Positions 4,407 to 54,500 of a stretch of DNA of 64,000 nt are shown here, one piece after another. The notes beneath the pieces are model-generated. The model did no database searches. It was given only the letters and a program-made list of their open reading frames with translations, and was not told where the DNA came from. The stretch spans positions 1-64,000 of the forward strand of contig JANYEC010000082.1 of assembly GCA_025363295.1 (NCBI GenBank), written 5' to 3'. A program made the position numbers and the translations under genes. This stretch comes from Akkermansiaceae bacterium (lineage in GTDB: Bacteria; Verrucomicrobiota; Verrucomicrobiia; Verrucomicrobiales; Akkermansiaceae). Numbering within the stretch: the first letter of the stretch is position 1; the number at the start of each line of letters is the position of its first letter.

Positions 4407-4789
4407 GACTGCTGATTGACACGCACGCGCTGCTGTGGTTTTGCGAAGGCAATCCTATTCTGAGTCCGAAAGCCCGGGCTGCAATGGAGAACGACACGAA
4501 CGAACGCTTTGTAAGCCATGCATCGGCTTGGGAGACGGCGATCAAGGTAAGCATCGGCAAACTCAAGCTTATGACAGATTACAGCGTGATTTTTCCCGGT
4601 GTGCTTGAAGCGAACGGTTTTGTGTTTTTGCCACCTGCCGTGGAGCATTATGAGGCTTTGATCACGCTGCCCCGACATCACGGCGATCCGTTTGATCGTC
4701 TGATTATCGCTCAGGCACAAGTTGAAGGGCTTACGATTGTAACTCGTGATGAGGATTTTCCGGCTTATGGAGTGCCTTTGCTCTGGTAG
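4403..4789 (+). CDS. PIN-domain toxin (VapC-like ribonuclease)
   Basis: A 128-residue PIN domain protein with the acidic residues expected of a metal-dependent RNase: D6 in LLIDTHALLW, E44 in SAWETAIK, D95 and D98 in HHGDPFDRLIIAQA, and D116/D118 in TRDEDFPAYG. This is the PIN subgroup with the THALLW and GDPFDR signatures. As a type II toxin it would cleave RNA when not held by the antitoxin encoded immediately upstream, with which it overlaps by 4 bp. It appears complete and intact even though it sits inside a broken Clp gene. Confidence 0.88.
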   Translation: MRLLIDTHALLWFCEGNPILSPKARAAMENDTNERFVSHASAWETAIKVSIGKLKLMTDYSVIFPGVLEANGFVFLPPAVEHYEALITLPRHHGDPFDRLIIAQAQVEGLTIVTRDEDFPAYGVPLLW

Positions 4790-4853
4790 CGTCAGGGATT
4801 CTGGCGTTTCGCCCTCGCGGGACAAGAGCGGCGGTCATAGACGCGCCGCTACA
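4790..4853. repeat. Short palindromic repeats at the right edge of the TA insertion
   Basis: Directly after the toxin stop there are two imperfect or perfect hairpins. CGTCAG and CTGGCG around 4792-4809 pair with one G-U. AGCGGCG at 4827-4833 pairs perfectly with CGCCGCT at 4844-4850 across a 10-base loop. Clp homology resumes at 4854. The position suggests these repeat units formed or marked the right boundary of the insertion. They resemble the in-frame palindromes found further into the Clp gene. Confidence 0.55.
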
Positions 4854-6419
4854 GGAGAATTCGAGGAACGCTTGGAAGCGGTGGTGCGCGAGGCGTCCTG
4901 TGAGCCGAAGCCGATTCTTTTCATCGATGAAATCCACCTGCTGCTGGGAGCGGGATCGGCCAGCGGCAGCATGGACGCGGCGAATATTCTCAAGCCCGCG
5001 CTGGCGCGGGGCGCGATCCGGGTGATCGGCGCGACGACGATCCGGGAATACCGCCAGACCATCGAGAAGGACGAAGCTTTGGAGCGGCGGTTCCAAGCGG
5101 TGAGAATCGAGGAACCGAGTGCGGAGGAAGCGGTGGCCATCCTACTGGCACTGCGGCCGAGATTGGAATCGCATCACGGGGTGGCGTTGGATGAATCGGC
5201 ACTGCGGGCAGCAGTGGAGTGGTCGGTGCGGTATTTGCCGGATTTCAGGTTGCCGGACAAGGCGTTGGATTTGGTGGATCAGGCTTGTGCGGCGGTTAGG
5301 TTTCGGACTTTGACGCCGCAGATTGAAGAGAAGAGTCGGGGCGAGACTCCCCCACAACGGTCTGGAGCGAGACGCTCCAGCCACCATGCTCCCAGCCACT
5401 TGGTGGTGGGGAGAGATGAGATTGCGGCGGCGGTGGCGGCGCGGTGTGGGATTCCGGTGGGGACGCTGACGGCGGATGAGGGGGCGCGGTTGAGGGCGCT
5501 GGAAGGTAAGCTTGGACGACGGGTGAAAGGCCAGTCGGAAGCGATCTCTGCTGTGGCCGAGGCGGTGCGGTTGGCGCGGGTTGGATTGAAGAAGGCGGAG
5601 CGTCCGGTGGGTGTGTTTCTCTTCGTCGGCCCCAGTGGCACCGGCAAGACCGAGCTGGCCAAGGCGCTGGCAGAGAATTTGTTTCACGACGCGCGGCGCT
5701 TGATCCGCGTCGATATGTCCGAGTTCATGGAAGAACACAGCGTGGCGAAATTGATCGGCTCGCCGCCGGGATACGTCGGCCACGACGAGGGCGGTCAACT
5801 CAGCGATGCAATCCGCACGTTTCCCTACAGCGTGGTGCTGTTCGATGAGATTGAGAAAGCCCATCCAAAGGTGCTGGATTTATTTCTCCAGATTTTTGAT
5901 GAAGGCACACTGACCGATGCTCAGGGGCGGAAGTGTGACTTCCGGGAATCTGTGATTATTTTGACCAGTAATTTGGGAAGCGAAGTGGTGAAGAAGCGGA
6001 GGATGGGGTTTGGAGCGGAAGAGGAAGAACACAGGCAAGATGCCTGTGCCCCCGTGGAAGAAGCGATCCGCAAGCATTTGAGGCCGCAGCTGGTGAACCG
6101 GCTGACGAAGGTGGTGCATTTCAAACTGCTGGGAATCGAGACAGCACGGGAGATCCTCGGGAAGCTGGTAGCGGAGTTCAACAATCGACTGGCAGAACGC
6201 AATTTGACTGTGGCACTGAACGAGAGCGCGGAAGAACTCATCCTTCGGGAAGGATTCAGCGAGGAATACGGTGCTAGAAATCTTGAGCGAGTGATGGATC
6301 GAATGTTAGGCTCGTTGGTTGCCGAGGCACTGTTGAGCGGAAAGCTGGTGGCTGGACAGGCGATCCAGGTAGCCGGCGTGAACCACTTGAAACTGAATCT
6401 CGAATCGGATGCCTTATGA
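4854..6419 (+). CDS. Double-ring Clp ATPase, 3' part of a split gene
   Basis: About 521 residues resuming Clp homology at GEFEERLEAVV. The first-ring Walker B (ILFIDEIHLLLGAG) is present, followed by a complete second ring: Walker A GPSGTGKT, DMSEFMEEHSVAKLIGSPPGYVG, Walker B VVLFDEIEKAHP, sensor region ILTSNLGS, and the C-terminal small domain. There is no ClpB middle coiled coil, so the parent was ClpA/ClpC-like in length. Two palindromic repeats have been absorbed in frame (5362-5380 and 6030-6048) without breaking it. No convincing own start is seen; the frame is open back into the toxin gene (ATG at 4746). The stop overlaps the kdpD start (ATGA), so translation of this part may still serve kdpD. 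Confidence 0.8.
   Translation, partial: GEFEERLEAVVREASCEPKPILFIDEIHLLLGAGSASGSMDAANILKPALARGAIRVIGATTIREYRQTIEKDEALERRFQAVRIEEPSAEEAVAILLALRPRLESHHGVALDESALRAAVEWSVRYLPDFRLPDKALDLVDQACAAVRFRTLTPQIEEKSRGETPPQRSGARRSSHHAPSHLVVGRDEIAAAVAARCGIPVGTLTADEGARLRALEGKLGRRVKGQSEAISAVAEAVRLARVGLKKAERPVGVFLFVGPSGTGKTELAKALAENLFHDARRLIRVDMSEFMEEHSVAKLIGSPPGYVGHDEGGQLSDAIRTFPYSVVLFDEIEKAHPKVLDLFLQIFDEGTLTDAQGRKCDFRESVIILTSNLGSEVVKKRRMGFGAEEEEHRQDACAPVEEAIRKHLRPQLVNRLTKVVHFKLLGIETAREILGKLVAEFNNRLAERNLTVALNESAEELILREGFSEEYGARNLERVMDRMLGSLVAEALLSGKLVAGQAIQVAGVNHLKLNLESDAL
5362..5380. repeat. In-frame palindromic repeat, 8-bp stem
   Basis: CTGGAGCG, loop AGA, CGCTCCAG is a perfect 8-bp stem. It falls between ring 1 and ring 2 of the Clp ATPase, where the protein reads an odd Arg/Ser/His-rich insert (SGARRSSHHAP) absent from normal Clp proteins. 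A weaker GAGTC/GACTC pair lies about 25 bases upstream. Confidence 0.7.
6030..6048. repeat. In-frame palindromic repeat, 8-bp stem (HRQDACA type)
   Basis: CACAGGCA, loop AGA, TGCCTGTG is a perfect 8-bp stem with the same loop as the repeat at 5362. It is translated as HRQDACAP inside ring 2 of the Clp ATPase, between GFGAEEE and VEEAIRKHL. I recall HRQDACAT and its reverse-strand reading TGILPV as frequent repeat-derived peptides in planctomycete and verrucomicrobial proteins. Confidence 0.75.
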
Positions 6420-9097
6420 ACGACCACCGCCCCGATCCCGACGCCCTGCTTGCCCAGGTCCAACGTGAGGAAAACCTAGAGAAAAAGGGACGACTCTACA
6501 TCCTGCTGGGAATGTGTCCGGGCGTGGGCAAGACCTACGCGATGTTGTTGTTAGCCCGCCAGCGGCAGAGCGAGGGGCTCAACGTCCTCGCCGGGGTGGT
6601 GGAAACCCACGGCCGGAAAGAAACCGCCATTCTGCTGGAGGGGCTGACCCTTTTGCCCAGGAAGAAGCTCCAGCACGGTGGCCATGCGTTGGAGGAATTC
6701 GATCTCGATACCGCGATCCAGCGCCGGCCGGACCTGTTGTTAGTCGATGAACTCGCCCATACCAACGCGCCTGGCAGCCGCCATTTGAAACGCTATCAGG
6801 ACGTGCTGGAACTGCTTGACGCGGGCATCGATGTGGTCACCACCCTCAACGTCCAACACATCGAGAGCCAGGTGGACATCGTGCGTCAGGTGACCGGCGT
6901 GGCCGTCCAGGAAACGGTGCCGGACTCGCTGCTCGACCGCGCGCACGAGATCCAGCTCGTGGATTTGAGCGTCGGGAAACTGATGATCCGCCTCGGCGCG
7001 GGGAAGGTTTACATGGGCGAACGTGCCCAAGCGGCGGCCGAAGGATTTTTCCGCGAGGGAAACCTAACCGCGCTCCGGGAACTCGCGCTGCGTTTCACCG
7101 CGGAGCGGGTGGATCGCGATCTCGAGGACATCCGCAAGGCGCGGCGGGTCAGCAGCCCTTGGAAGACCAACGCGCGGCTGATGGTGGCGGTGGGGCCGAC
7201 GCCGTATTCGGAGAGTTTGATCCGCTGGACCCGCCGCGCGTCGGGCCGCCATGGCTGCGCGTGGCTGGCGGTGTGGGTCGAGGGCACCCGGCCGCTGACC
7301 GCGCAAGAGCAGGATTTGTTAGCCCGCGGCCTCGGACTGGCGCGGAGACTCGGGGGGGAGGTGGTTCACGCCACCGGGGATGACGTCGCCGCGACCCTGT
7401 TGGAAACCGCACGCGAGCGGAACGTCTCCCAGATTGTCGTCGGCAAGGCTAACCGCCGCTCGCGCTGGAAGCCGACCCTGGCGGATAAAGTCATCACGGG
7501 CAGTGGCGACATCGACGTTTGCGTGGTGCGGCCGGTGATCGGGCGCCCGTCTAACTGTCCGGAATGTCGGCGGCGGGATTTCGCCTCCCAACCGCTTCAG
7601 GAATATGGGATCGCCCTTGGCATCATCGCCGCGCTCACGGCAATCTGCTGGCCGCTGGAGCCGGTGGCCGGCTACACGGTGCCGGCGCTGGTCTATCTGT
7701 TCGCGATCCTGCTGGCGGCGTTCCGCCTCCGCCGTGGGCCCATGCTGTTCATGGCCGCGCTGAGTGCGCTGGCGTGGAATTATTTTTTCATTCCGCCGCG
7801 GTTCACGTTCCAGGTGAGAGCGCTGGAAGACATCATTTTGCTCGGGTTGTTCTTTGCGGTCGCGCTGAGCATGGGCCACCTAACGACCCGGCTGCGAACC
7901 CGCGAGATCGCCGAGCGGCGGCGGCAGGTGGAGACCGACGCGCTGCTCCGCGTCACCCAGAGCGCCGCGCTGGCTCCAGAGACGGCGAAGGGATTGTCCG
8001 AGGCGGTTAGAATTATCAACTCGGTGATCGATGCTGACACCGCGTTGTTAGTCCGGCGGCTCGACCACTCGTTGCCGCCGGGTGCCCATGCCGGGAGCAC
8101 TTGGGAACCGCGGGAACACGAGTTCGGGGTCGCTTCCTGGGCCTACACCAACAAGCAAATCGCCGGACGCTTTACCGACACGCTACCGGAATCCGAGGCC
8201 ACCTGGTTTCCGCTGCAAACCGCGACATCGGTCATGGGGGTGTTAGGACTGCGGCTGGCGGGGGAAAAGCAGTCGCTGGACTTCACCCGTCGCCAGGCGG
8301 TCGAGGCGTTCGCGCTGCAACTCGCGTTGGTGTTGGAGAAGGAGCATTTCATCCAGGCGGTCAGCCAGGCGGAGGTGATGGACAAGTCCGAGCGGCTGCG
8401 GCGAAATCTGTTGGACAGCGTTTCCCACGAGTTGAAAACCCCGCTGGCCATCATCCGCGCATCCATCGAAGGCATGGGGACCGCCGCTGCGAATCCTTAC
8501 GTGGTCGAGATCGACACCGCGACGAAGCGGCTCCAGCGATTGGTGGACGGGCTGCTCCAGATGACCCGGCTAGAATCACAAGTCGTCGAACCTCAGATGG
8601 AATGGAGCGACGTCAACGAATTGGTGGAAGGCGCGATCAAGGCGGCGGGGGACGCGCTGAAAAGCCATCCTTTGAGCGTGGATGTCGCGCCGGACATTCC
8701 GTTGATCAAGACCGATCAGGCGCTGTTACAGCAGTCGCTGGCCAATATCCTGCACAACGCCGCCGTTTACACTCCTGAGAATTCGACGGTGGCGTTAACG
8801 GTTCGTCACGCGGAGCAAAAACTCCGTCTCACCGTCCGTGACCACGGCCCGGGCCTGCCACCCGGCGAGGAGTCGCGCGTCTTCGGGAAATTCTATCGGG
8901 CGGCGGGCGCGCCTGCCGGAGGAACTGGTCTGGGTCTTTCGATCGCACGAGGTTTCATCCAAGCACTCGGTGGCGACATTTCAGGCTGGAACCATCCAGA
9001 GGGTGGCGCGGTTTTTGAAATCCTGCTCAAAGCGGAATTTCTGTTGGAAACAGATGATCACGGCGCTTGCGTCATGGATCGAAACAAGGAGACTTGA
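6416..9097 (+). CDS. kdpD: Sensor histidine kinase KdpD
   Basis: An 893-residue KdpD. In order: the cytoplasmic KdpD domain with GRLYILLGMCPGVGKTYAM (Walker A) and the DELAHTNAPGSRH and TTLNVQHIES boxes; a universal-stress-like domain (about 250-370); four hydrophobic segments (DUF4118, about 395-500); a GAF-like region; the HisKA phosphoacceptor His671 in SVSHELKTPL; and an HATPase domain with DHGPGLP and GTGLGLSIA. KdpD senses K+ limitation or ionic stress and phosphorylates KdpE. The start overlaps the Clp stop (ATGA). kdpE follows after 4 bp, but no kdpFABC genes occur in the window, so target genes are elsewhere or different. GC content is visibly higher than in the genes after 9.8 kb. 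Confidence 0.93.
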   Translation: MNDHRPDPDALLAQVQREENLEKKGRLYILLGMCPGVGKTYAMLLLARQRQSEGLNVLAGVVETHGRKETAILLEGLTLLPRKKLQHGGHALEEFDLDTAIQRRPDLLLVDELAHTNAPGSRHLKRYQDVLELLDAGIDVVTTLNVQHIESQVDIVRQVTGVAVQETVPDSLLDRAHEIQLVDLSVGKLMIRLGAGKVYMGERAQAAAEGFFREGNLTALRELALRFTAERVDRDLEDIRKARRVSSPWKTNARLMVAVGPTPYSESLIRWTRRASGRHGCAWLAVWVEGTRPLTAQEQDLLARGLGLARRLGGEVVHATGDDVAATLLETARERNVSQIVVGKANRRSRWKPTLADKVITGSGDIDVCVVRPVIGRPSNCPECRRRDFASQPLQEYGIALGIIAALTAICWPLEPVAGYTVPALVYLFAILLAAFRLRRGPMLFMAALSALAWNYFFIPPRFTFQVRALEDIILLGLFFAVALSMGHLTTRLRTREIAERRRQVETDALLRVTQSAALAPETAKGLSEAVRIINSVIDADTALLVRRLDHSLPPGAHAGSTWEPREHEFGVASWAYTNKQIAGRFTDTLPESEATWFPLQTATSVMGVLGLRLAGEKQSLDFTRRQAVEAFALQLALVLEKEHFIQAVSQAEVMDKSERLRRNLLDSVSHELKTPLAIIRASIEGMGTAAANPYVVEIDTATKRLQRLVDGLLQMTRLESQVVEPQMEWSDVNELVEGAIKAAGDALKSHPLSVDVAPDIPLIKTDQALLQQSLANILHNAAVYTPENSTVALTVRHAEQKLRLTVRDHGPGLPPGEESRVFGKFYRAAGAPAGGTGLGLSIARGFIQALGGDISGWNHPEGGAVFEILLKAEFLLETDDHGACVMDRNKET

Positions 9098-49709: not shown

Positions 49710-50839
49710 AGGGAATCGGATCGAGTGTAGCGCCGGATGAAGGAGTCTTTGTAGGCGGAGTAGTTTCCCGCTGCGATTGCTTCCCGCGCCCCGGCGACGA
49801 GGGACAGGTAGAAATGCAGATTGTGGAAGGAAAGCAACCGCAAACCGAGGATTTCGCCCGCCCGGAAAAGGTGCCGCAAGTAGGCACGGGAAAATCCGGC
49901 GACGTGTGGATGCGCACTTTCGCAAACGGGTCGTGGGTCCTTGGCGTGAGTCAGGTTCTTGATATTGATCGGCCCATCGAGCGTCATCGCCATCCCGTGG
50001 CGGGCGATTCGGGTAGGCATCACGCAGTCAAACATGTCCACCCCACGGGCAATCATTTCCAAAATCTGCGGCGGCGTGCCTAGCCCCATCGCATAGCGCG
50101 GCTTGTCTTGGGGCAGAAATGGCACGGCATTTTCGATCGCCCGGAACATCTCGTGCTCGGGCTCGCCCACGGAAACCCCGCCAATCGCATACCCATCGAA
50201 GCCGAGTTCCACCAGTTCTTTAGCCGATTGTTCACGCAGATCCGCAAAGATCGATCCCTGCACGATCCCGAAATGCTGCTGCCTGCCCCCGCCGGAGCGA
50301 GGCTCGTTTTCCGTGACCCAGTCCTTACAGCGCTTTGCCCAGCGAGTCGTCAGTGCGAGGGATTTGGAAGCGTAGGCTTCATCGCAAGGATAGGGCGGGC
50401 ACTCGTCGAATAGCATCGCGATGTCGGAGCCGAGCGCACCTTGGATTTCCATACTGAGCTCGGGAGTGAGCAGCATTTTCGAGCCATCGAGATGATTGGA
50501 GAAACGCACGCCCTCCTCGGTGATCTTTCGGAGTTTGGCCAACGACCAAACTTGGAAGCCGCCCGAATCGGTGAGCATCGGCTTATCCCAATGACAGAAA
50601 CGATGCAGCCCACCCAGCTCGCGGATCAGCTCATGCCCCGGCCGCAGCCACAGGTGGTAAGTGTTGCCCAAGATGATTTGCGCACCGAGCTCTTCGACCT
50701 CCACCGGGTGCAGCGTTTTGACCGTGCCTTGCGTGCCCACCGGCATGAAAATCGGTGTTTCAACCGTTCCATGAGGCAAAACGAGACTGCCGCAGCGGGC
50801 GGAACTTTGGAAATCGGTGGAGAGAAGGGTAAAAGACAC
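49706..50839 (-). CDS. tgt: tRNA-guanine transglycosylase
   Basis: 377 residues from GTG 50839 (SFTLLSTDFQSSARCGSLVLPHG, as in other Tgt proteins); an upstream TTG at 50884 adds 15 residues without homology. FMPVGTQGTVK and DSGGFQVWSL are present, with the catalytic Asp region MFDCVMPTR; GGVSVGEP is the family sequence around the base pocket. It exchanges guanine for preQ1 in tRNAs with GUN anticodons. In the usual zinc-binding region, Cys/His residues are only partly visible. First gene of the tgt-yajC-secDF operon. Confidence 0.93.
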   Translation of the reverse strand: MSFTLLSTDFQSSARCGSLVLPHGTVETPIFMPVGTQGTVKTLHPVEVEELGAQIILGNTYHLWLRPGHELIRELGGLHRFCHWDKPMLTDSGGFQVWSLAKLRKITEEGVRFSNHLDGSKMLLTPELSMEIQGALGSDIAMLFDECPPYPCDEAYASKSLALTTRWAKRCKDWVTENEPRSGGGRQQHFGIVQGSIFADLREQSAKELVELGFDGYAIGGVSVGEPEHEMFRAIENAVPFLPQDKPRYAMGLGTPPQILEMIARGVDMFDCVMPTRIARHGMAMTLDGPINIKNLTHAKDPRPVCESAHPHVAGFSRAYLRHLFRAGEILGLRLLSFHNLHFYLSLVAGAREAIAAGNYSAYKDSFIRRYTRSDSL

Positions 50840-51016
50840 GGAAAAGGCGGAAGTAGTCCAGAATTTCGCAGGGGCCAAGCCCAAACACCAGCCATCCAGC
50901 TCGAAAAATAGTTGCAGAAATTTAGAAACTTCTGCGACCCGTCGGAGTTCTCATGATACACAGGTGAACAGCGGTCTGCCCTAGCTAGAAAATTCCGAAA
51001 AATTTTCAGTGGCACG

Positions 51017-51045
51017 TTGCTTCGCTCGAATTACTTTCCTATGTT
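51017..51045 (+). promoter_or_regulatory. Sigma70-like promoter for the small CxxC protein
   Basis: TTGCTT (51017-51022), a 17-bp spacer, TATGTT (51040-51045). The start codon is 35 bp further on. Between them lies a 12-bp direct repeat AACCAACAAATT / AACCAACAAAT (51057-51079) directly before the ATG. Confidence 0.45.
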
Positions 51046-51079
51046 TCAAAGATACAAACCAACAAATTAACCAACAAAT

Positions 51080-51319
51080 ATGAAACTCCTACTCAGCGCT
51101 ATCTGCGCATCATTCCTAGTTGCCCCGCTCGCCTTTTCCGAAGGTTGTGAAAAGGGCAAATGCGACAAGGACAAAGCAAAACAAGAAGAAGGCACCGTAG
51201 CTGCATGCGACAAATGCAAAAAAGGTGACGAAGAGAAAAAGGAAGAAGGCACTGTGGCTGCGTGCGACAAGTGCAAAAAAGGTGACGAAGAAAAGAAAGA
51301 AGAAGGCACGTTCGCCTGA
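51080..51319 (+). CDS. Small secreted Lys/Glu/Cys-rich repeat protein
   Basis: 79 residues: a clear signal peptide (MKLLLSAICASFLVAPLAFS) followed by a highly charged mature part. Two tandem copies of a 19-residue unit (EEGTVAACDKCKKGDEEKK) and a partial third are encoded by 57-bp near-identical DNA repeats. Each unit carries one CDKC (CxxC) motif, plus a preceding EGCEKGKC with two more Cys. Metal binding or a role against oxidants in the periplasm is possible but is inference; I recognise no family. The gene stands alone with its own promoter and terminator, so it is probably strongly expressed as a single unit. Confidence 0.7.
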   Translation: MKLLLSAICASFLVAPLAFSEGCEKGKCDKDKAKQEEGTVAACDKCKKGDEEKKEEGTVAACDKCKKGDEEKKEEGTFA

Positions 51320-51346
51320 GTCACCCCATCCGTTTAATTTTCCAAA

Positions 51347-51376
51347 AGCTGCCGGATACCCTCCGGCGGCTTTTTT
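51347..51376 (+). terminator. Rho-independent terminator of the small repeat protein
   Basis: AGCTGCCGGA and TCCGGCGGCT form a 10-bp stem (one G-U) with loop TACCC, followed by TTTTTATT. It lies 27 bp after the stop codon. Confidence 0.9.
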
Positions 51377-51529
51377 ATTGGAGTGAATCGGTTATCATAA
51401 GAGCGCAGGTGACTAAAGCGATTTTATCAACTCTCCTCCGGTGTCATTCCACTTAGCGCAATGCGACACCCCATTTTCCACAATTTCTGAGTTCCCGTAG
51501 CACTAAGTTGGTAGCAGTCTCGCTCAGCG

Positions 51530-54500
51530 ATGAACATTCTTGCTCCTAACCTGCTCATTCTGGCATCTGCGGGATCCGGGAAGACCTTTCAATTGGGGAA
51601 CCGGGTGATTGGGCTGGTGGTGCGCGGGGTGGCTCCGGAGAAAATCGTCGCACTGACTTTCACGCGTAAGGCGGCAGGCGAATTTGCGGACTCGGTTCTA
51701 ACGAAATTGGCAAGGGCGGCGTGCGAGGAGACCACTGCTGCCAGTTTGCGAAAAGATCTGGGTCAACCGGGGGCGGATTTCGGCGAGGCGCTGGAGCGAG
51801 TGGTTAGAGCATTACCGCGATTCACGCTGGGGACGATGGATGGATTTTTTTCACGCGTAGTCAGAGGGTTTCAGTATGAGTTAGGGTTGACCGGCGGAAA
51901 ATTCGATCTACTCGAAGGCCCACGAGCGGAGGCCGCAGCGGATGAAATTCTAGCAGCAATTCTGGGGGAAGCCATGGAGTCTGACGGAGGAGAGGAATTT
52001 TTACATGCGTTCCGGCGAGCGACGCTCGGTAAGGAATCCCAAGGAGTGAAGGAGAGTCTGCGGAAGTTCGTACAAGCGTGGCATGGCTGCTACCGAGCAA
52101 AACATGATTTGGAGTGGGGGCCGGATTTTCTAGCAGGGGTGGATCGTAAGGAGTGGGAAAAACAGAAGTTCGCGATCGAAGCGCGTGTTTCACGGGGATT
52201 AGATGGAATCGAATACACAGAAAAGCGGCAGCGCCAGGCCTTGCAGAAGGTGATCGAAACGTTAGTGAATCACACGATCGGCAGCGGTAGCCTAGGTGGA
52301 GGCTCAAAGCTGATGGAAAGCATCATGAAAGCAGCGTCCGAACCTAACGGACCGATGAGAGTGAATTTTTACAAGGAATTTCTCATCTGCGGACCCTCGG
52401 CGGATGCACTGCGGGAAATGGTGAATCTCGCCGCCCGCTGCGAGATGGCGGCGGCAATTACGCGTACACGTGCGGTGCGCGAGGTGGTCTCGGTTTACGA
52501 TTCGCTTTGTGAAAACAAGCTCCGGCGGCGCGGAATGTTAGGATTTGATGATGTGAAAATCCTCATGGGCCAATGGGCGAAAAACGAGGACGCTCGGTTG
52601 CGGCGCGAGGCGGTGGATTTCCGGCTGGATGCACGGTTCGACCATTGGCTGTTAGATGAGTATCAGGACACTAGCGGTGCGGATTGGACAGGGCTCGTGC
52701 CACTGATTGATGAGGCTGCTGGAGACAGCGAAGGCAGTGTCTTCATCGTCGGCGATAAGAAACAAGCAATCTACGCTTGGCGTGGTGGTGAGATGGGTTT
52801 GTTCGATGAGGTGATAGAACGTTACAATGGCGGGCTGGAAGTTGAGCCGTTGACAGTATCTTGGCGCTCCTGCCCGGAGGTGTTAGCACTGGTGAACCGG
52901 GTCTGCGGCGATGTTTCCACGATGCGGGAATTTTTCGGTGATGCGGCCGATCGCTGGGACTGGCAGGACCATTTTTCAGCGGAAAATTTAAAGGACCCGG
53001 CCAAGCGCGGCGAGTCCCGCGTGGAGTTCGTGGAAGGAAAATGGGAGGAGCGCTTGGAGCGGCTGGGTGATTTGTTAGGAGAGCTCGGCGTTGGAAAGTG
53101 TGAAATGACCTGCGGCGTGTTGGTAAGAAGCAATTCTAGGGTGCGAGAGATCGCGGACGACTTGCGGGCGAGGGGATTTGATGTGATCGAGGAAGGTCAA
53201 CGCGAACCCGCGAAGGATCATCCAGTGGGCATCGCGCTCGGGCATTTACTCAAATGGCTGGCCGATCCTGCGGATGCGTTCGCTTGGGAAGTAGTGGAAA
53301 TGTCTCCGCTAGCGGATGGGCTGCGAGCGAAGTTCGGGGATCACTGGCAGTCAATCTGGGAGGGTCTGCTAGGCAACGCCTCGGAGCTGGGATTCGCGGG
53401 GATGGTGGAAGTGACTGCGGAAATCTGTTGGGCCGATTGGTCGGATTTCGGACGGCGGCGCGCGGGCGACCTCATCATGACTCTCGCCAATCTGGACGCC
53501 CAAGGTGGTGCAACTGCCAGAGAAGCTGCGGACCGAGTGGCGCGGCTGACTGTTTCCCAAAGCCCCGGAGTGGCAGCGGTGCAGGTGATGACGATTCATA
53601 AATCAAAGGGTCTTGGATTTGATGTCGTGATTCTGCCAGATATACCAAATGACAGCGTGCCCTCTGCACAGCATTTCGACATGGCAGAAGGTCCGGGCTG
53701 GATTACCGAACCTCCGCCGAAATGGGTGCGTGAGCTTTTGCCGGAAATGAAAGAGGCCGAGGAAAAATGGGGCATGGGCCAGCGATACGAAGCGTTCTGC
53801 ACATTATATGTAGCACTCACCCGTTCGAAGCGCGGACTTTATGTTCTGTTGGAACCGCCATCCTCAAGGCAAGACGTGAACAAGCCTTCCCTAGCTAACT
53901 GGCTGGCCACCTCGGTAGGGGCCACCGGAGACCCCGGGGTAATCTATCAAGAGGGTGAGTCGGACTGGGTGCACGAAGTTCCCCTGCTAGAACAAAAAGA
54001 GAAAACCAGCACTCGATCCACACTTGGAAATGCAGTGCCACGCCGTGAGAGAACGATGCCGAGCGCTGCAAAAAAAAGCGATGGTGCTGTTGCCCAGTCT
54101 GCCACGGGCATGATCTTCGGCACTGAAGTGCATGCCGCGTTTGAACAAATCGGATGGATCGATGAGGAGCTCCCTAACTTGCCGCAGAATGATGCCGGAA
54201 ATCTGGTGGCCGAACTCTTGAAACTGCGAGCGCTGCGTACTCTTTTCGAGCGTGGTGGGCGCTCTATCGAACTCTTCCGTGAACAGCCAATCGACGCGAT
54301 GTTAGACGGAAAATGGCTGAGCGGAATCATTGATCGCCTGCATCTCCACCGTGATTCATCAAACGCGGTGACATCGATCGAGGTGATCGATTTCAAAACC
54401 GATGCGGTAAATGGCATGGAACAGTTAGCCACCCGCTATTCAGGCCAAATGAATGCTTACCGGAGTGTGATCGAGCGGGCCTATCCGTTTGCACAGGTTA

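Follow-up and report, generated by a model that had tools for sequence, protein, structure and literature searches.

The sequence at 51080-51319 on the forward strand of the window (the whole stretch of 64,000 nucleotides analysed here) is a genuine, conserved gene. It encodes a 79-amino-acid protein with an export-type start followed by units that each carry a pair of cysteines, and it belongs to a family of Cys-pair repeat proteins which, in the samples searched, appears to be largely confined to one bacterial group. Of the 73 genomes of the same genus, 66 keep the gene with a recurring promoter, leader and terminator, and no library searched has a name for it. The chances are about even that the protein is an exported, intrinsically unfolded and unmodified metallothionein-like thiolate buffer for metals outside the cytoplasm. 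We infer the metal binding, the choice of metal and the buffering role from the properties described below.

The gene and its expression signals

The reading frame, taken from the ORF listing, starts with the hydrophobic N-terminus MKLLLSAICASFLVAPLAFS. Residues 1-20 (51080-51139, forward strand) resemble a Sec-type signal peptide when judged by eye, and this N-terminus is conserved in the alignment of relatives, which points to export of the window protein. The mature part consists of three units on the same strand. Unit 1 (EGCEKGKCDKDKAKQEEGTVA, 51140-51202), delimited by unit splitting and sequence comparison, carries one CX4C pair, C-EKGK-C. Units 2 (ACDKCKKGDEEKKEEGTVA, 51203-51259) and 3 (ACDKCKKGDEEKKEEGTFA, 51260-51316) were delimited by comparing the DNA copies, and both carry a CX2C pair, CDKC. 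The mature window protein has no histidine. TRF reports a tandem at 51170-51309 with a period of 57 bp, 2.5 copies and 85% matches, whose two full 57-bp copies are units 2 and 3; this agrees with an earlier reading of the sequence alone (the sequence-only reading), which had described 57-bp DNA repeats encoding CDKC. Its suggestion that the units were recently duplicated had to be given up. Nine of the 57 bases differ between units 2 and 3, mainly silently (seven codons are silently changed and one is replacing in an unfiltered comparison), so these are not fresh copies. An 85-amino-acid frame is open antisense to the whole gene (51067-51324, reverse strand) and is probably a by-product of the Lys/Glu-rich codons.

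The locus is a complete single-gene unit made up of a putative promoter, an A/C-rich leader, the reading frame and an intrinsic terminator. The same reading had placed the promoter at a TTGCTT-17-TATGTT pair starting at 51017. This pair is present in the sequence, and a promoter of the gene's own is retained here, but comparison with the relatives probably places it about 8 bp further upstream. There an A/T-rich block (GAAAAATTTTCA, 50997-51008) is the counterpart of the GAATAANNT block of the relatives, according to a by-eye comparison of 31 upstream regions. It is followed by a putative -35 element GTGGCA (51009-51014; CTGGCG in many relatives of the genus) and, 17 bp past it, by a putative -10 element TACTTT (51032-51037; TANNNT in relatives), all on the forward strand and both elements assigned from their position in relatives. 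In many same-genus relatives the arrangement GAATAA..T...CTGGCG, 16-18 bp, TANNNT is seen by eye before the gene. A strict form of this pattern matched in ten of the 73 genus genomes, once in each and always 40-49 bases before the repeat gene, while a reversed control pattern gave no match in the 73; the pattern had been drawn by eye from the 31 regions, and seven of the ten matches lie in genomes of that set, the three others being G159, G172 and G192. The window promoter is a variant, GTGGCA-17-TACTTT, and together with its A/T block it fails the strict pattern. A wider regulon under the same promoter was considered and rejected, as the strict pattern was found only before the repeat gene and no regulon was seen at that stringency. 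A sigma-70 scan of 50500-51800 let no site pass, TTGCTT-17-TATGTT included, and no metal-regulator box could be recognised by eye upstream of the gene. Rfam gave four matches in 50800-51600, all of them under the gathering score. In genus g22 a different arrangement, GGAACAAA ... GTTC, recurs upstream of the repeat gene (L112-L114, L116-L119, L121); it is either an imperfect inverted repeat or an ECF-like promoter, and differs from the CTGGCG type found in the genus of the window.

The putative leader (51048-51079, forward strand) is A/C-rich, lacks a Shine-Dalgarno sequence and contains a 12-bp tandem, AACCAACAAATT, at 51057-51079, found by tandem search. In 67 family leaders the 30 bases before the ATG have a mean A+C content of 83% (minimum 63%), compared with a mean of 54% (maximum 67%) before 39 mechanically called window ORFs with unverified starts. 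A Shine-Dalgarno-like motif is found in none of the 67 leaders and before seven of the 39 ORFs; since it is rare in the window ORFs too, only the A/C richness sets the family leaders apart.

Downstream, folding places an intrinsic terminator with a hairpin and a T run at about 51344-51376 (forward strand). For 51325-51385 the folding energy is -23.7 kcal/mol (z -4.6 relative to 200 shuffles), although a simple terminator scan did not pick it up. A terminator-like hairpin within 90 nt of the stop codon is found in 58 of 63 full-length family genes (the exceptions are L006, L030, L031, L122 and L131) and in 0 of 63 shuffled stretches, which supports the terminator noticed in the sequence-only reading. 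The putative promoter in its shifted position, the A/C-rich leader lacking a Shine-Dalgarno sequence and the predicted terminator all recur in the family. Together these signals would suit steady expression, and the -35 element is far from consensus.

Distribution, design and turnover of the family

Absence of relatives had been named beforehand as grounds for doubting the gene, and relatives turned out to be common. With E 1 as the limit, a search with the window protein gave matches in 39 of 59 genomes, its own included, and the same-order matches of this single-protein search were at noise level (E 0.04-0.45). The count of 66 among the 73 genus genomes, which again includes the genome of the window, was obtained with a profile of 20 members. 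The same profile found relatives in 95 of 260 genomes of the taxonomic family, spread over five of 16 genera. It matched 22 of 189 genomes in the order sample, and only G044 (E 6.8e-10) among these is not from the family; at E 1e-4 it matched 15 of 387 genomes in the phylum sample, where the two matches beyond the family are marginal. Among the genomes listed for genus g18 none of the 13 gave a match. Seven same-genus genomes gave none, and three of these (G029, G160 and G163) have a completeness of 92% or more. Relatives lie on 28 named contigs, every one with a MAG title: 12 Akkermansiaceae, eight Verrucomicrobia, -aceae or -ota, four Prosthecobacter debontii, three Akkermansia muciniphila and one Luteolibacter sp. 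For the A. muciniphila and P. debontii bins the species assignment in the title is probably wrong. Relatives in viral contigs were also looked for, and none of 25 stretches with the pattern was confirmed.

The anatomy of the family was studied in 67 distinct proteins, 63 of them full-length, after one partial protein contained in another had been dropped; L032 and L115 contributed no member. The full-length members have 56-199 amino acids (median 126) and consist of units of mostly 16-24 residues. Exactly two cysteines are found in 281 of 317 automatically split segments, the exceptions including proteins that the splitter failed to cut, and the number of cysteines in the mature part is even in 52 of the 63 full-length proteins. 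Consecutive cysteines are separated either by 0-5 residues (400 gaps) or by at least seven, never by six; among the short gaps, 204 are of two residues, 69 of three, 86 of four and 33 of five. The conserved feature is therefore the Cys pair itself, mostly with two to five residues between, and the CxxC repeat originally proposed is right about the pair and wrong about a fixed spacing. A spacing that drifts while the pair stays is what would be expected of flexible chelation and not of a thioredoxin-like CxxC. A unit with the motif HCGKC is found in 29 of the 63 full-length proteins and is missing from 34. The 38 segments containing this motif hold 71 of the 82 histidines, and 30 of them have a further histidine downstream.

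The composition of the proteins is extreme, with K 26%, E 17%, D 13% and C 11%; K, E and D make up about 57% of the mature part, and cysteine 10.7% of it in the 63 proteins. Among 6908 residues there are one arginine, no tryptophan, no tyrosine and eight phenylalanines. Forty-five of the 63 proteins end in LA, and the units carry similar x-L-A tails. AlphaFold2, run with a 20-member alignment, gave a mean pLDDT of 50.4 and a pTM of 0.16 with no residue reaching 70, and no fold is thus predicted for the family.

Members range from two to about ten units; a few proteins were left uncut by the splitter (for example L013 and L029), and their unit counts are lower bounds. In 26 loci linked to tgt, 16 of the 17 pairs with at least 93% identity between their TGT proteins differ in the length of the repeat protein, and the closest pair (98.6% TGT identity) has five units versus seven. 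The number of units thus turns over fast and differs between very close species; the sequence-only reading had foreseen a copy number that may vary between strains, and the variation seen here is between species. Adjacent units of equal length show a pS of 0.324 and a pN of 0.025 in 84 pairs which were pre-filtered to at least 70% amino acid identity, a filter that lowers pN. Of these pairs, 39 are identical in protein but different in DNA, and eight are identical in DNA; the units seem to be under selection for their protein sequence. The window array spans only 140 bp and has diverged copies, and the single-contig genome G004 encodes a family member of 174 amino acids. Repeat collapse by assembly error, which had been raised beforehand as a doubt, is therefore unlikely to account for the family.

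The repeat gene stands alone, with no conserved functional partner beside it, and the neighbour survey, the reading frame and the conserved N-terminus bear out the earlier description, that of a Cys-repeat protein which is encoded on its own and has an export-type start. All neighbour counts are lower bounds, as the flanks are unequal in length. Of the 67 loci, 24 have TGT as one of the two genes next upstream (a tblastn search of the whole loci gives 26) and ten have an S4/FtsJ methyltransferase in such a position; a NUDIX gene lies downstream in 16. In other genera the neighbours are different. We take the neighbourhoods to consist mostly of housekeeping genes, as far as their sequences suggest, and no partner with a role in metal handling or protease maturation was seen among the recurrent neighbour clusters (the larger ones of 125 were annotated). 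In one locus only, L023, what is presumably a metal-type ABC transporter operon (binding protein, ATPase and two permeases, 4661-8232) begins downstream, about 130 bp from the repeat gene, and in one other, L028, a gene that we assume to be Fur-like lies near it.

Possible functions of the Cys pairs

That the units are active in metal or redox chemistry, as was first suggested, is plausible. In the mechanism proposed here the exported, unfolded polypeptide would act like an extracytoplasmic metallothionein. Each unit would offer one thiolate pair (mostly CX2-5C), in some relatives together with histidine, on a Lys/Glu/Asp-rich linker almost without arginine and aromatic residues, and outside the cytoplasm it would bind a soft metal ion (Cu(I), Zn or Cd). 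The capacity of a protein would depend on how many units it has, a number that changes readily. The spread of the family, the Cys-pair rule, the drifting spacing, the His module, the composition, the missing fold, the low pN and the lack of a partner gene speak for this reading. Against it count the absence of histidine from the mature window protein and of HCGKC from more than half of the family, the failure to recognise a regulator box, the mostly housekeeping neighbours and the lack of a metallothionein match in Pfam. Thiols outside the cytoplasm may moreover oxidise, and the genome of the window has a VKOR. If the protein does bind metal, metal buffering outside the cytoplasm would be feasible by an unmodified repeat protein with a capacity tuned by repeat number, and the family would provide a natural series, from two to about ten units, in which such tuning could be measured.

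The pairs might instead form a disulfide/thiol redox buffer in which the units switch between dithiol and local disulfide and so protect the envelope from oxidants or mis-paired disulfides. The regular presence of exactly two cysteines per segment would suit this rather unlikely reading, as would VKOR matches in two of five genomes (that of the window and one of four others tested), whereas the drifting spacing does not, and the HCGKC...H module of some relatives fits metal better. In addition, three of the five genomes carry the repeat protein with neither VKOR nor DsbA above cut-off, these two being the only disulfide enzymes searched for. DsbA (PF01323) was above cut-off in none of the five and gave one sub-cut-off match in the window's own genome. 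At G000:C70:53667-54422 of that genome a VKOR match is directly followed by this partial DsbA match, each in a 409-amino-acid open frame, which is probably a VKOR-DsbA fusion. We find it unlikely that the protein is a charged, disordered polyampholyte of the envelope or matrix (for surface coating, desiccation or colloid binding) whose Cys pairs merely cross-link chains; the high content of K, E and D and the lack of a predicted fold are as this would demand, but the number of cysteines per unit is tightly held, and at about 11% of the mature part they seem to exceed what cross-linking needs. Very improbable is a polyprotein in which the recurring tail GTLA/PALA, similar to the signal-peptide end AFA, is a cleavage site releasing near-identical Cys-pair peptides. 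Such tails do end the units as well as most of the proteins, and units often start just past an alanine, as expected of a mature protein. Variable residues, however, come after the tail, and neither a protease nor an exporter is prominent among the recurrent neighbours in the larger annotated clusters.

It is distinctly unlikely that the repeat protein is a RiPP precursor whose cysteines are converted to thiooxazole-type metal ligands by an MNIO acting in trans, as for bufferins, oxazolins and the CxxxxC type. The design is shared with oxazolin precursors, which are described as having a Sec signal and a varying number of short repeats, each with two Cys motifs (PMC12452194). The repeat protein occurs in all 12 genus genomes that are MNIO-positive, and the MNIO-linked CxxxxC-type precursors of the genus have a K/E-rich tail ending in I-L or I-I in common with the repeat family and, in several cases, an A/C-rich leader as well. 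The genome of the window encodes an MNIO (PF05114) with DUF2063, but on another contig, so that the two co-occur there only in a weak sense. MNIO matches are nevertheless found in just these 12 of the 73 genus genomes, whereas 54 genomes with the repeat protein gave none, the single-contig G004 among them, so that in most hosts the protein cannot be dependent on MNIO. As MAGs are incomplete, single absences of MNIO are weak; among the 48 genomes with at least 90% completeness and at most 5% contamination, ten have an MNIO and 38 gave no match. As a control, the CxxxxC-type precursor is found in ten genomes, all of them MNIO-positive (the MNIO-positive G164 and G193 lack it). The window protein has no EGKCG motif, it showed no similarity to one CxxxxC-type precursor in BLASTP (E 17), and no MNIO is among the recurrent neighbours listed for the repeat-gene loci. 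PMC12452194 states that many precursors of bufferins are encoded away from MNIO genes, which counts against the co-occurrence argument. On the strength of the co-occurrence test an MNIO-dependent precursor was still set aside as the main reading.

The precursors themselves deserve a short description. In the window's own genome a Cys-rich precursor with CKGKDGC repeats lies near the MNIO, in a cluster with MNIO and DUF2063 (L034, G000:C83, 1071-3968). A second, very similar copy followed by DoxX is found on another contig (L144, G000:C54:5501-5809); this copy has an ATG start, and in the one near the MNIO the corresponding codon is ATA. The CxxxxC-type precursors read at 11 loci in the genus finish in a K/E-rich tail whose end is I-L or I-I, which takes the form G-x-I-[LI] in ten; their selection required a K/E-G-like tail and is circular for this feature, and a dropped locus (L149) was read separately. 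The same tail is present in five genus precursors obtained without the tail filter, and it is missing from two precursors found in other families of the same order (L035, L037). A K/E-rich tail with a hydrophobic end (EGTIL, EGTLA), and often an A/C-rich leader, is thus shared by the precursors at L140-L150 and the 67 family loci. The repeat family can be compared with RiPP metallophore precursors in some of the same genomes. A doubtful extension of the metal buffer reading is that the protein is an unmodified, length-tuned extracytoplasmic metallothionein, near-universal in one genus, which evolves as units with one metal site each are gained and lost, and which has a tail module and a leader type in common with the MNIO-linked precursors of that genus. 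It would then form a bridge, crossed in either direction of evolution, between thiolate buffers and peptide metallophores made by enzymes.

Comparison with known families

The window protein has no Pfam match at cut-off and no match in NCBIfam. For 20 members of the family no metallothionein family was found in Pfam (E up to 1) or in NCBIfam (E up to 0.01), and DUF2282 was not among their Pfam matches. Pfam gave 22 families at E up to 1, which were taken as chance matches of Cys-rich sequence; the best were Defensin_beta_2 (E 0.00089, two of 20 members), IBR_1 (E 0.0039) and Furin-like (E 0.006, one member each), the cut-offs being known for the window's member only, whose match is below cut-off. 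The NCBIfam match HPE1_fam_CxxC (E 0.0044, one of 20 members) was likewise taken as chance. The only matches among solved structures, to a designed helical repeat (E 0.0087) and to alpha-synuclein (E 0.86), were regarded as due to low complexity. A description of the Cys-pair repeat family was not among the literature matches listed.

As described in PMC12452194, the CxxxxC family resembles the repeat family in its signal peptide and repeated Cys pairs. The precursors of the genus, assigned to this published family by motif and operon, are also Lys/Glu-rich with a K/E-rich tail end and in several cases an A/C-rich leader. The repeat family differs from that published description in having no tie to MNIO, a gap of mostly two to five residues instead of four only, and no BLASTP similarity. 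From Buf_EGKCG and the oxazolins it is set apart by the absence of EGKCG repeats from the window protein, by the lack of an MNIO partner in most genomes and by the lack of a predicted β-helix (PMC12452194). It is equally unlike a thioredoxin-like CxxC redox protein, as its gap mostly varies between two and five residues and no fold is predicted. Two traits usual in metallothioneins are present, a high cysteine content in paired thiolate motifs and a scarcity of aromatic residues combined, as a prediction only, with no fold without metal; as noted, no known metallothionein family was matched in Pfam or NCBIfam.

Bacterial metallothioneins of the SmtA/BmtA type are small, Cys-rich cytosolic proteins with an occasional histidine that are expected to be unfolded without metal. 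The repeat family shares the small size, the cysteine content, the occasional histidine and the expected lack of a fold without metal with these, but has an export-type start, a modular build and a variable length, and gives no metallothionein match in Pfam. The Csp copper-storage proteins are four-helix bundles with many cysteines in spacings of the CX2-3C type, and exported members exist. The repeat proteins are similar in their export-type start, in the many cysteines per chain and in the CX2-3C type of spacing; unlike Csp they are poor in large hydrophobic residues once the N-terminus is set aside, and no fold is predicted for them. The family is restricted to a lineage and of a known kind, small repeat proteins that are Cys-rich and exported, and what is unusual in it is the design of the Cys-pair repeat.
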